Shown piece after piece: positions 58,633 through 63,105 of a stretch of 64,000 nt of DNA (positions are counted from its first letter, which is position 1; each line of letters starts with the position of its first letter). A model generated the notes under the pieces. It was not told where the DNA came from and made no database searches. It saw only the letters and a list, made by a program, of their open reading frames with translations. This DNA comes from an uncultured Ruminococcus sp. (lineage in GTDB: Bacteria; Bacillota; Clostridia; Oscillospirales; Ruminococcaceae), in the NCBI GenBank assembly GCA_945868475.1, contig CAMBLM010000002.1, positions 124,001 to 188,000 on the forward strand. The letters are read 5' to 3'. Both the position numbers and the translations under genes were made by a program.

Positions 58633-58822
58633 CCCCGAAATAAAATAAAAATGAGCGGAAAAGCATCTCTTCCGCTCATACTGTGTTTCATCTCAAAGCA
58701 GGCAGGCATAAAAGCCGCCGCTTGTAAATAAAAAAGAGTATCTATTGACCTCTGCGCACTCTTTGCGGCAGGGTGAGAACGGAAAGTTCTGCTTTATTTT
58801 AAATGGTTTTCTCAAACCAACG
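58633..58822 (-). promoter_or_regulatory. infC-rpmI-rplT leader (L20-leader type attenuator)
   Basis: A leader of about 190 nt between promoter and infC. Its last part is a perfect hairpin ATGAGCGGAA..TTCCGCTCAT (58651-58679) followed by TTTTTATTTTATTT directly before the ribosome site, so it can end transcription before infC. An earlier AGAGT..ACTCTTTTTTATTT stretch may act as a second stop or an alternative pairing. The position agrees with the Firmicutes L20 leader; I did not check its detailed fold. Confidence 0.65.
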
Positions 58823-58828
58823 CTATAT

Positions 58829-58856
58829 ATTATACCACAAAAAACGCATTTGTCAA
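58829..58856 (-). promoter_or_regulatory. Promoter of infC-rpmI-rplT
   Basis: On the minus strand a perfect TTGACA, 16 bp, perfect TATAAT with extended TGG. Confidence 0.85.
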
Positions 58857-58901
58857 GGGTTTTTGCAATTTTTTTTGAAATTTCTTCGTTCTCCGCAGAT
58901 A

Positions 58902-59072
58902 TTATGACTTCAAATTTCTAAAAAGCTCTTCCAAGTCCGTATAACCCTTTACATTCGGGTCAGCCGCAATCTTTTCAGCTTCAAGCACTGCTTGTTTTGT
59001 ATAAAAATTCGGAACGAACTCATCATCTTTTACGAATGATGCCTTTTCTTTGCAAACGTCTTGCTTTTTCAT
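58902..59072 (-). CDS. RelB/DinJ-like antitoxin fragment (56 aa)
   Basis: The last 30 or so residues (TKQAVLEAEKIAADPNVKGYTDLEELFRNLK) match the C-terminal half of RelB/DinJ-type antitoxins, the part that wraps its toxin. The usual N-terminal ribbon-helix-helix DNA-binding region is missing: from ATG 59072 only about 25 residues precede the match. The longer track start would overlap the previous gene in another frame. No RelE/YafQ toxin gene follows; the infC promoter comes next. It is probably a remnant, or a stand-alone antitoxin for a toxin elsewhere. The start is four bases after the stop of the preceding gene. Confidence 0.6.
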   Translation of the reverse strand: MKKQDVCKEKASFVKDDEFVPNFYTKQAVLEAEKIAADPNVKGYTDLEELFRNLKS

Positions 59073-59076
59073 AAAA

Positions 59077-59508
59077 TCACTGTCCGTCAGCCTGATCGGC
59101 ACTCTCGGAAACATTTCCCGCAAGCTTGTTCTGATAGGATTCATTGTCGAACCATTCGTCCAGCACCTTTACGGAGATGGAATAACCTGTGCCTGTCTTG
59201 ACATACTCGGTGATCTCGCCCGTGGTGAGGAGAGTTTCTATCTCCTGCGAGGTGAGGTTGAGATACTCGGCAGCTTCGTCCTCGGTGAGGTATTTTTTCT
59301 CGCTGAAGTTCATACTGTCGGGCGTTGTGACGTTGCTGATATTTGAGAAAGACTTATCGGTGACCGTCTTGTTCAGCTTGCGTATGCCGCCGCCTATTGA
59401 AAGTCCGCTTATAAGTACGCATATTCCGAGGAAGACTGCTCCGACGAATGTTCCGTTTATCATTCCCGAACGGGGTGCTCTGTTTCTGTTATCCTGATTT
59501 GAAGCCAT
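59077..59508 (-). CDS. Membrane-anchored protein with excisionase-type helix-turn-helix
   Basis: The 143-residue protein starts with a short polar, basic stretch (ASNQDNRNRAPRSG), then one membrane helix (about 16-44, GTFVGAVFLGICVLISGLSIGGGI). After a linker there is a domain that looks like a MerR/excisionase helix-turn-helix (KKYLTEDEAAEYLNLTSQEIETLLTTGEITEYVKTGTGYSISVKVLDEWF, about 71-120). The arrangement would place the HTH either outside the cell or in the cytoplasm depending on topology. Its function is unknown to me. It lies 15 bp after addA and four bases before the antitoxin fragment, likely in the same transcript. Confidence 0.7.
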   Translation of the reverse strand: MASNQDNRNRAPRSGMINGTFVGAVFLGICVLISGLSIGGGIRKLNKTVTDKSFSNISNVTTPDSMNFSEKKYLTEDEAAEYLNLTSQEIETLLTTGEITEYVKTGTGYSISVKVLDEWFDNESYQNKLAGNVSESADQADGQ

Positions 59509-59523
59509 TTTTTATCCAGCCTT

Positions 59524-62500
59524 TCATAACGAAATTTCTATCTCCCTATCAAGGCTGAAAGAATAAAGAAAAGCCTGACGCACCCTGATATGGAAAATTT
59601 TCTCCAGAGCGGCACTGTACAGAACGAGCTGTCGGCGGTAGCGGTCGGCAAGGACTTCACCGCTCTTCACGCGGTCGGTCTTGTAATCGACAAGCACTGT
59701 TTCGCCGTCCTCGAAGAAGATACAGTCGGCGATGCCCTGAAGCATACTGCTGCTATTATTATACTCCAAACCGTACATTCCGTCAAGACCCAGCTTTGAT
59801 ATTTCGACAAGAAATTTCTGCTCCCGGTGCACCTCGGGCGAGCGCTTCATTCGCTCGTAAAGCGGCGAACGGAAGAATGCTCTTATATGCTCAATATCAA
59901 GTGAACGGCGTTCTGCGGAGCTGATGATGCCGAGCGTTTCAAGGCGTTCGGCTTCGGCTTCGGGGTCTTTTTCCGCAGCGGCATAATCGGCGTACTGCAT
60001 AAAGGTATGCGTTGCCGTTCCTATCTCTGCGGCGGTAAGCTTTCCGTGATCTGCGGCGAATTCGGGGCGGCGCAGGAAAACCTCGGAACTCTCGCTTTTG
60101 GCTATCTCGGTTATGGTGAGCTTCGCAAGCGTTTCGGTAAGTCCGCTGTTATAATGGCAGTTGAAATTATCAAGCAGCTTTCGGACGCTCTCCTCTTCCG
60201 CAAGTGCTTTCGCTTCTTCGGGAGCTTTTTCATCGGCGGAAGTATCCTCGAACGAGGATATTTTTATCTTCGATCTGCCGGTTCGTGTCGGGACGTAGAT
60301 CTCATTCTGTATTCGGCAGGAGTCGGGGTGCGTGAGCAGTATCGCAAGCAGCCAGTCGAGCATTGACTGTGCCTTTACCGCCGACGGATTTCCGTTCTCT
60401 GCGGCAAGCTGGGCAGCACACTGAGCAATTCGGCGGCGGGTATTGTCGCTGTCGGGGACGGTTATGAAAAGCCGTTCCTTTGCTCTTGTGAGTGCAACAT
60501 AAAGCAGTCGCATCTCCTCGCTTATGCTCTCGCGTCGGTTCACGCAGGATATCGCATAGCGTGGGAACGAATCGTAAAGCTGACCCGTTTCGAGGTTCTG
60601 GATCTTGAAGCCGATGCCGAGGTCAAGATGTATCTGCATACGGTTCGTGCAGTCTGTAAGGTTGAATTTCCGCGAAGTTCCGCAGAGAAAAACGAACGGA
60701 TATTCAAGTCCCTTTGATTTGTGTATGGTCTTTACCGAAACTGCGTTGTCGGCAGGCGAAACGACCGAGGCACGGACAAAATCGCCGCCGTTTTCCGAAA
60801 CATCGTTAAGATAGCGTATAAATCCCGACAGGCCGCCCGAGGAATTCTGCTCATACGATTTTGCATATTCGAGGAGCAGGCGCAGGTTTGCTTTTTTCTG
60901 CTCGCCGTCCGAGTAAACGCTCATAGATGAAAGGAAATCCGTGCTGTCATAAACGGTCACGATGAGCCTTTCAAGGCTTTGCGAAGCGGCGCATATACGC
61001 AGGCTCCTGAAAATCTTACAGAAGCGTTCAAGCTTTGCTTTTGCGGAGTAGTTACTTTCCTCCCCGACCGCTTTCAGAACGGCTTTGTATAGCTTTTCGT
61101 CACGATTTTCCGAAAGCAGGCGAAGCTCCGCCATCTCGTCAGCATCGAGCATAAACATCGGCGACATCAGCACTGAAACGAGCGGTATATCCTGCATCGG
61201 GTCATCTATGACTTTAAGCAGATTGAGAAGCACCGATATTTCGCGTGACTGTAAATAGCTTACGGTTTCTTCGCAGACCGCTTTTATGCCCATTGCGTTG
61301 AGTTCATCGGCGTAAAGCTGTCCCCTCGCTCTGTCACGGAGCAGAACGCAGAAATCGCGCGGCTCGCAAGGGCGCATTTCACCCTTGTCAAAAACCTTTT
61401 CGATGCCGAGCATCGACTTTATCCTTGAAGCCGCCGCACGAGCCTCCGCCTGAGCCGCAGAGAGCGATTCTTCGCCGCTTTCATCGTCCGAAGATACTGT
61501 TATAACGCCCTTGTCGGGGGAGAAAATTATCTCGGTCGCGCGGTCGGCATCGGGATAATTTGCGCCGTATTCAAGCTTCTCATTATCGGTATAATCTATG
61601 CCGCCGTTATCCCTGTCCATAATGTTTTCAAACACATCGTTGACGAAATCGACAACATCGCGGCTGCTTCGGAAATTTCGGTTGAGAAGCACCGCAGCAT
61701 TCGTTCCCGTGAAGCCTTTTTCATAAGGTTCGGACGAGTCGAGGACTTCGAGGAAATTATTCGGGTTCGCGAGTCGGAAACGGTATATCGACTGCTTTAC
61801 ATCGCCCACGACAAAGAGGTTGTCGCCGCCCTTTTCGGCTGTGCCGTTGTGTGAGAGCATACGGAAAATGACGCTCTGCGTGTTGTTTGCGTCCTGAAAT
61901 TCGTCTATCATTATCAGCTTGTAATACTCGGAAAGCTCACGGGCAAGCGGCGTTCGGATGATGTTTCCGTTATCGTCCTTTCTGCACAGAAGCTTTACCG
62001 CAAGCTGTTCCGCATCGGAGAAGCCGAGCGCGTTTTTGTCGGTCTTGATGGCGTTTATCTCTTTGATAAGCTCCTTGACGAGAAGCGAAACGCCGTCGAT
62101 GATCTCGGCGTTCACTTTGTAGTCGTCCGTAATGTTTTTAAGTGAAAAGACATTGCCGCAGGCATCATTCGCAAGCTTTTTGTATCGGTCACGGAAGTCC
62201 TTTACCGCATCGATAACGGCGGCATCGTCCGAGTCTTTTTCCGTTTTCGGATAGCGGCAGGTATCAAACCTGATCGGCTTGGGCATTCTCTCGTCCCATG
62301 GCAAAGCCGTATCTTTCACACGCACGGCAAGCTGTTCAAAAAGCTGTGCTTCGCCCGTGATGATGCTCTGCGCCTTTGATTTTCCGTCGTCGGGAACTAT
62401 TTCAGCCGCATAGAAAGCCAGTGCCGCCGCACTTCTGAACTGCTGCGAGATATACTCCGAATACGCCGCCGCAAGAGGGTCTGTTCGTTCATCGAAAGGC

Positions 62501-63105
62501 TGTTCGTAACGCTTTTTCGCGCTGTCGAGGAAGTCGGTCGGGAACGGGAGCGACATTATGAAGCGGTATATTGCGAGCATCGTTTTTTCCAGCTCGGTAT
62601 CTCCCCTTGCGCCCGAACAGGTGAAGTCCGCAAGCTTTTTCATAAGCTCGGGCTTTTCGCCGTAAAGACGTTCAAAGACATTCTCGGAGGCTTTCGCAAC
62701 GATGAGCTTTTCCTCCGAATCATCAATAATGCGGAAGCCTGCCGAAACATCGAGCGACTGGACATTTTCCCTTATAAGATCAAAGCAGAATGAATGTATG
62801 GTCGAAATTTTCGCCGATGGGATAAGCGCCTGCTGGCTGAAAAGCCACTCGTTCGAGGGGTCGGCTTCGAGCTGTTTAGCTATCGCATCGGACAAACGCT
62901 GTTTCATCTGCGCCGCCGCATCGTTAGTGAATGTTACAACGATTATCTTATCGGCAGGAACGCGGTTCTCGTTATCGGAGAGGATACGGAGCAGCCTTTC
63001 GACCAGAACGGAAGTCTTGCCGCTTCCTGCCGCCGCCGAAACTATGACCGATGTGTTTCTCGCTTCAATAGCTTCAAGCTGTCGGTCTGTCCATTTATCA
63101 GCCAT
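59524..63105 (-). CDS. addA: ATP-dependent helicase/nuclease subunit AddA
   Basis: AddA pairs with AddB as the Gram-positive counterpart of RecBCD, processing double-strand ends for recombination. The 1193-residue protein has UvrD-type helicase motifs: VSAAAGSGKTSVLVERLL (about 19-36, Walker A), TFTNDAAAQMKQRL, IDEFQDANNTQSVIF (about 400) and VKTIHKSKGLEYPFVFL. A C-terminal RecB-type nuclease has LVDYKTDRV near 1150. Its ATG lies eight bases inside the addB stop region (ATGGCTGA overlap), so translation is coupled. Confidence 0.95.
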   Translation of the reverse strand: MADKWTDRQLEAIEARNTSVIVSAAAGSGKTSVLVERLLRILSDNENRVPADKIIVVTFTNDAAAQMKQRLSDAIAKQLEADPSNEWLFSQQALIPSAKISTIHSFCFDLIRENVQSLDVSAGFRIIDDSEEKLIVAKASENVFERLYGEKPELMKKLADFTCSGARGDTELEKTMLAIYRFIMSLPFPTDFLDSAKKRYEQPFDERTDPLAAAYSEYISQQFRSAAALAFYAAEIVPDDGKSKAQSIITGEAQLFEQLAVRVKDTALPWDERMPKPIRFDTCRYPKTEKDSDDAAVIDAVKDFRDRYKKLANDACGNVFSLKNITDDYKVNAEIIDGVSLLVKELIKEINAIKTDKNALGFSDAEQLAVKLLCRKDDNGNIIRTPLARELSEYYKLIMIDEFQDANNTQSVIFRMLSHNGTAEKGGDNLFVVGDVKQSIYRFRLANPNNFLEVLDSSEPYEKGFTGTNAAVLLNRNFRSSRDVVDFVNDVFENIMDRDNGGIDYTDNEKLEYGANYPDADRATEIIFSPDKGVITVSSDDESGEESLSAAQAEARAAASRIKSMLGIEKVFDKGEMRPCEPRDFCVLLRDRARGQLYADELNAMGIKAVCEETVSYLQSREISVLLNLLKVIDDPMQDIPLVSVLMSPMFMLDADEMAELRLLSENRDEKLYKAVLKAVGEESNYSAKAKLERFCKIFRSLRICAASQSLERLIVTVYDSTDFLSSMSVYSDGEQKKANLRLLLEYAKSYEQNSSGGLSGFIRYLNDVSENGGDFVRASVVSPADNAVSVKTIHKSKGLEYPFVFLCGTSRKFNLTDCTNRMQIHLDLGIGFKIQNLETGQLYDSFPRYAISCVNRRESISEEMRLLYVALTRAKERLFITVPDSDNTRRRIAQCAAQLAAENGNPSAVKAQSMLDWLLAILLTHPDSCRIQNEIYVPTRTGRSKIKISSFEDTSADEKAPEEAKALAEEESVRKLLDNFNCHYNSGLTETLAKLTITEIAKSESSEVFLRRPEFAADHGKLTAAEIGTATHTFMQYADYAAAEKDPEAEAERLETLGIISSAERRSLDIEHIRAFFRSPLYERMKRSPEVHREQKFLVEISKLGLDGMYGLEYNNSSSMLQGIADCIFFEDGETVLVDYKTDRVKSGEVLADRYRRQLVLYSAALEKIFHIRVRQAFLYSFSLDREIEISL

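Follow-up and report, generated by a model that had tools for sequence, protein, structure and literature searches.

ORF1, encoded directly behind addA in an uncultured Ruminococcus sp., belongs, as judged from its sequence, to a conserved family of membrane proteins with a single transmembrane helix in Ruminococcaceae-type bacteria, and the short ORF2 that follows it appears to be its neighbor by accident, with a history unrelated to that of ORF1. For the locus as a whole, we consider it reasonably probable that ORF1 is a repurposed winged-helix membrane protein and ORF2 a leftover antitoxin tail of the DinJ type. Both reading frames are located in a window of 64,000 nucleotides, which represents the whole stretch of DNA analyzed. 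An earlier note on this DNA had placed them four bases apart, and their placement was confirmed: both are on the minus strand, with positions 59073-59076 between them (Table 1).

Table 1. Features of the region between addA and infC, and parts of the ORF1 protein.
Feature	Position	Strand	Description
addA	59524..63105	-	immediately precedes ORF1 with a gap of 15 bases; addB lies further upstream
ORF1	59077-59508	-	143 aa, one membrane helix and a C-terminal excisionase-type domain
ORF1 N-tail	residues 1-17		short, basic
ORF1 membrane helix	about residues 18-42		single, hydrophobic
ORF1 linker	about residues 50-70		S/T/N-rich
ORF1 winged-helix/excisionase-like domain	residues 72-122		acidic, followed by an acidic C-tail
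ORF2	58902-59072	-	56 aa, from an inner ATG of an 80-aa frame
Lineage-specific extra DNA	approx. 58876..59063	-	about 185 bp long with 38% GC, in the spacer separating ORF1 from the infC promoter
infC operon promoter (sigma-70-type)	58829..58856	-	TTGACA, 16 bases, TATAAT
L20-type leader RNA before infC	58641..58800	-	Rfam RF00558, E=8e-5

Conservation and Genomic Neighborhood of ORF1

Sequence and profile searches, followed by removal of duplicates by hand, yielded 37 distinct loci of the ORF1 family. In 33 of these, addA is found directly upstream of ORF1, while AddA was looked for upstream of ORF1 and not found in L051, L072, L073, and L074. Downstream of ORF1, at least 19 of the 33 addA-linked loci contain infC, and the others contain different genes or reach the end of the contig. 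Since the downstream side varies or is cut off in this way, addA has to be regarded as the stable neighbor of ORF1. The co-conservation behind addA that the earlier note suggested checking was therefore observed for ORF1, but not for ORF2, which is carried by the window's own locus only and is absent from the other 36 of the 37. Similarly, the link to AddAB proposed there holds as a neighborhood, but four relatives keep ORF1 elsewhere, so that the case for a role together with AddAB is weak.

When 299 genomes of the family were searched with the ORF1 profile, 22 gave strong matches (E below 1e-27) and the remaining 11 matches were weak. The dN/dS values of ORF1 were 0.16 against L002 as well as 0.09 and 0.13 against L003 and L004, the synonymous sites of the latter two comparisons being near saturation. 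ORF1 is under purifying selection. Its neighbors are addB, addA, and infC-rpmI-rplT, with neither a partner integrase nor a mobile element among them, and viral contigs contained no relative of ORF1 at the search depth used. Among the literature searched, there was no paper on an AddAB-linked membrane protein or on an extracytoplasmic excisionase-type domain.

In the sample of the wider order, a single protein from outside the family was convincing as a distant relative. This 129-aa protein with a membrane helix and a winged-helix-like domain comes from another family of the order (L110:1468-1854). Its profile matched that of ORF1 over linker and domain with a probability of 96.6% (hhalign). 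The protein shares with ORF1 the arrangement of membrane helix, linker, and winged-helix-like domain, but it is encoded near a GAPDH gene instead of addA. Longer membrane proteins (L077:1462-2172 and L113-L137) were present in 98 of 119 genomes sampled, and the region following their helix bears a weak resemblance to the ORF1 domain (hhalign 40%). A further candidate from Oceanobacillus (L052) was rejected, as it has only the membrane helix region in common with ORF1.

Domain Structure, Charge, and Orientation of ORF1

In accordance with the earlier note, ORF1 combines one hydrophobic membrane helix with a following domain of the MerR/excisionase type, for which TIGR01764 scores above its cut-off (30.0 versus 28.8 bits, E=5e-7). 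HTH_17 (PF12728) reached 24.3 bits on ORF1 and thus remained under the cut-off of 27, which was exceeded by the relatives L085, L090, and L091. TIGR01764 was matched by 19 of 20 diverse members of the family (E<=0.01). An AlphaFold2 model generated from an input of 24 sequences comprises a long helix (H19-51), a linker of low confidence, and then secondary structure elements in the order of a winged helix (E73-75, H76-83, H87-96, E102-105, E108-112, H113-121), with a pLDDT of about 80 for the domain, a mean of 63.7 for the whole model, and a pTM of 0.35. In Foldseek, the best structural match was the excisionase RdfS (E 4.7e-3, probability 1.00), BldC and Pukovnik Xis being next in rank, and none of the PDB matches reached an E of 0.001. 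A search of the PDB sequences with the ORF1 profile also returned 8vd6 ("CAP REPEAT"), a chain of helical repeats that was dropped as repetitive, no single stretch of it having passed.

ORF1 therefore has its predicted fold and core motif in common with excisionase/MerR-type winged-helix proteins (TIGR01764, PF12728; RdfS, Pukovnik Xis, BldC), but its domain is tethered to a membrane helix, and its recognition helix and wing are poor in basic residues, the net charge being strongly negative. Over the HTH_17 stretch, the mean net charge of six ORF1-family members of the genus was -8.4 per 50 aa, whereas the 19 other HTH_17 matches of the same genus had a mean of +3.0, the lowest of them being at -1.3. 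Members of the ORF1 family contain 1-3 lysines and arginines per 50 residues of this stretch (net -8 to -9), in comparison to 5-9 in most other full-length HTH_17 matches. A basic DNA-contact surface, used here as a proxy for DNA binding, is therefore lacking in ORF1 as far as net charge is concerned. The acidic charge supports, but does not prove, that ordinary DNA binding has been lost in this domain.

Around the membrane helix, mean net charges, computed over 40 rows with some duplicates, were +2.9 for the N-tail, +1.5 for the first 15 residues after the helix, and -9.8 for the remaining C-terminal part. Because the N-tail is the more basic side, the positive-inside rule mildly favors an orientation in which the N-tail faces inward and the domain lies outside the membrane. 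This orientation is less than certain, since the residues directly after the helix (RKLNK) are basic as well and the assignment rests on a modest charge difference.

ORF2 and the Extra DNA Between ORF1 and infC

Residues 20-56 of ORF2 correspond to the toxin-binding tail found at the C-terminus of RelB/DinJ antitoxins and are preceded by only 19 residues. In a search of 61 genomes (the own genome and 60 relatives), residues 21-55 aligned without gaps over 35 aa to full RelB/DinJ-type antitoxins of five relatives with identities of 66, 63, 57, 54, and 50% (best E 1.4e-8 per genome). The tail-matching antitoxins of L009, L010, L011, and L013 adjoin a YafQ-like toxin ORF, the one beside the L010 antitoxin being PF15738 YafQ by model. 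The three of these antitoxins that were tested (L009, L010, and L013) are PF04221 RelB, and that of L010 is also TIGR02384 RelB_DinJ. ORF2 thus resembles the RelB/DinJ antitoxins of dinJ-yafQ modules (PF04221, TIGR02384) in its tail, but it differs from them in having neither a ribbon-helix-helix head nor a toxin nor a family model match: searched alone against Pfam and NCBIfam, it matched no model, neither RelB nor any other, and the N-terminal ribbon-helix-helix is absent. The description of ORF2 in the earlier note as a C-terminal antitoxin fragment devoid of DNA-binding part and toxin was borne out by the aligned tail and by the absence of an adjoining toxin.

The earlier note had recommended searching the genome for a RelE/YafQ-family toxin without an antitoxin. 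Searches by family model of the own, 99.5%-complete genome yielded no match to a YafQ-family toxin at E<=10, and the sole strong ParE-type toxin has, as judged by eye, a Phd/YefM-like ORF directly upstream. The same genome encodes a solitary RelB/DinJ-family antitoxin (L023:1492-1731, C10; TIGR02384 E 9e-18), next to which no toxin gene is evident. In a different genome of the genus (L016:1217-1704), a YafQ toxin is preceded by a 68-aa antitoxin with a DinJ-like tail on a different head (MSTKELASIIFENLTEEQLKGF...). This 68-aa protein matched nothing in Pfam or NCBIfam and is possibly a non-RHH antitoxin for YafQ.

ORF2 largely coincides with the extra DNA listed in Table 1, the boundaries of which are uncertain by about 10 bases, as the flanks are A/T runs. 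In the sister locus L002 and three other aligned relatives, the spacer that leads from ORF1 to the infC promoter does not contain this stretch, and the 299 genomes of the family yielded only matches of ~20-40 bases to it, none being longer than about 40. The GC content of ORF2 is 37.5% with a GC3 of 0.375, compared with a GC3 of about 0.6 in addA and ORF1, and its ribosome-binding site appears weak by eye. By eye, the start region of ORF2 (TTTTATGAAAAA) resembles the spacer of L002 (TTTTTTGAAAAA), so that the start codon may derive from old spacer DNA; a scripted global alignment left this left edge unsettled. Inspection of the ends revealed only short A/T-rich matches; neither a target-site duplication nor terminal inverted repeats could be made out convincingly, and searches for ORF2 in plasmids and viral contigs found nothing.

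The sigma-70-type promoter of the infC operon is also present in the sister genome L002 and separates infC from the add operon. Because the infC operon has its own promoter, ORF2 is assigned to the end of the add operon and not to the infC operon. Co-transcription of addB, addA, and ORF1 is suggested by their spacing. The leader before infC is probably of the L20 type, its score of 36.4 bits being below the gathering score of 58.7; this divergent leader is partly conserved in relatives.

Alternative Explanations

The earlier note had left open whether a toxin-antitoxin locus decayed at this site or whether membrane protein and peptide belong together as a unit of their own. Decay is a fitting description for ORF2, a DinJ-type tail in DNA that the sister genome does not have, but not for ORF1. 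ORF2 is probably debris of a dinJ-yafQ module. A full relBE pair at the ORF1 site, which according to the note would indicate simple decay, was found in none of the relatives, and for this reason the decay would have concerned an inserted fragment and not an ancestral pair. The opposite polarity, in which the ORF2 stretch is ancestral and was lost many times, is unlikely. Apart from the shared strand and the four-base spacing, nothing in the comparison of loci speaks for a functional unit of ORF1 and ORF2: in 36 of the 37 loci, ORF1 has been retained in the absence of ORF2, and the sister genome has no extra DNA, which leaves this reading with hardly any credibility. A working solitary antitoxin tail directed against incoming YafQ toxins would be consistent with the intact 37 residues, which share up to 66% identity with the tails of antitoxins beside YafQ-type toxins, with the case of L016, where a comparable tail is attached to another head, and with published precedents: an anti-addiction role has been proposed for orphan antitoxins, and a CcdA encoded on a chromosome proved able to neutralise the CcdB of a plasmid (PMC7354431). 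Nevertheless, most orphan antitoxins of the Klebsiella survey in question were judged likely degraded systems (PMC7354431), and with its missing conservation, low GC3, and weak ribosome-binding site, ORF2 makes such a role quite improbable, although some residual antitoxin activity of the open tail is conceivable.

With regard to ORF1, its excisionase-type fold, its location next to a DNA-repair helicase-nuclease gene, and the basic residues after the helix, which make the orientation uncertain, would be compatible with a membrane-tethered DNA-binding protein whose cytoplasmic winged helix holds DNA or AddAB at the membrane or regulates transcription. The scarcity of lysine and arginine in comparison to most other matches and the strongly negative charge, the more basic N-tails, and the location of ORF1 away from addA in some relatives argue against this possibility, and we consider it unlikely. 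An origin of ORF1 as ordinary remains of a prophage or excisionase joined to a membrane segment would account for the type of its domain, but is extremely improbable for a gene that has held its position in 33 loci, is under strong purifying selection, and has no relative in viral contigs at the search depth used.

Possible Function of ORF1 and Implications

As a repurposed membrane protein, ORF1 would probably have arisen when a winged helix of the excisionase/MerR type was attached to a membrane anchor, with the fold being kept and the basic DNA-contact surface presumably lost. The domain would most likely serve as a protein-binding module, or else have a component of the envelope as its ligand; it would probably face outward from the membrane and be made together with AddAB from the addBA operon. 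A tentative proposal is that the winged helix was moved outside the cell membrane and there serves, as a conserved domain made along with AddAB, to bind proteins or the wall. A functional tie to AddAB via co-expression is possible, but such a tie would be separable or weak because four relatives carry ORF1 elsewhere. The closest functional analogy is offered by RodZ, a bitopic membrane protein whose helix-turn-helix domain binds MreB and RodZ itself and not DNA (PMC6946637). Both proteins have one membrane helix and a helix-turn-helix domain, which in RodZ binds proteins, and we infer that the ORF1 domain may work in a similar way, with no homology being claimed. ORF1 does not belong to the RodZ proteins, which consist of an N-terminal XRE-type domain, a membrane helix, and a periplasmic domain, as the order of its parts is reversed: the RodZ helix-turn-helix is N-terminal and cytoplasmic, whereas that of ORF1 is excisionase-type, C-terminal, and probably outside.

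The case of ORF2 illustrates that toxin-antitoxin debris can pass for a new operon partner. Automatic annotation would give ORF1 the name "excisionase family DNA-binding protein," probably a misnomer for a family of acidic membrane proteins that is under purifying selection and mostly encoded beside addA. If the ORF1 domain is indeed located outside the cell, it would provide a clear case of a DNA-binding fold in other use and call for caution when names are transferred by helix-turn-helix models, and the extracellular winged helix would represent an unusual use of such a fold at the cell surface.
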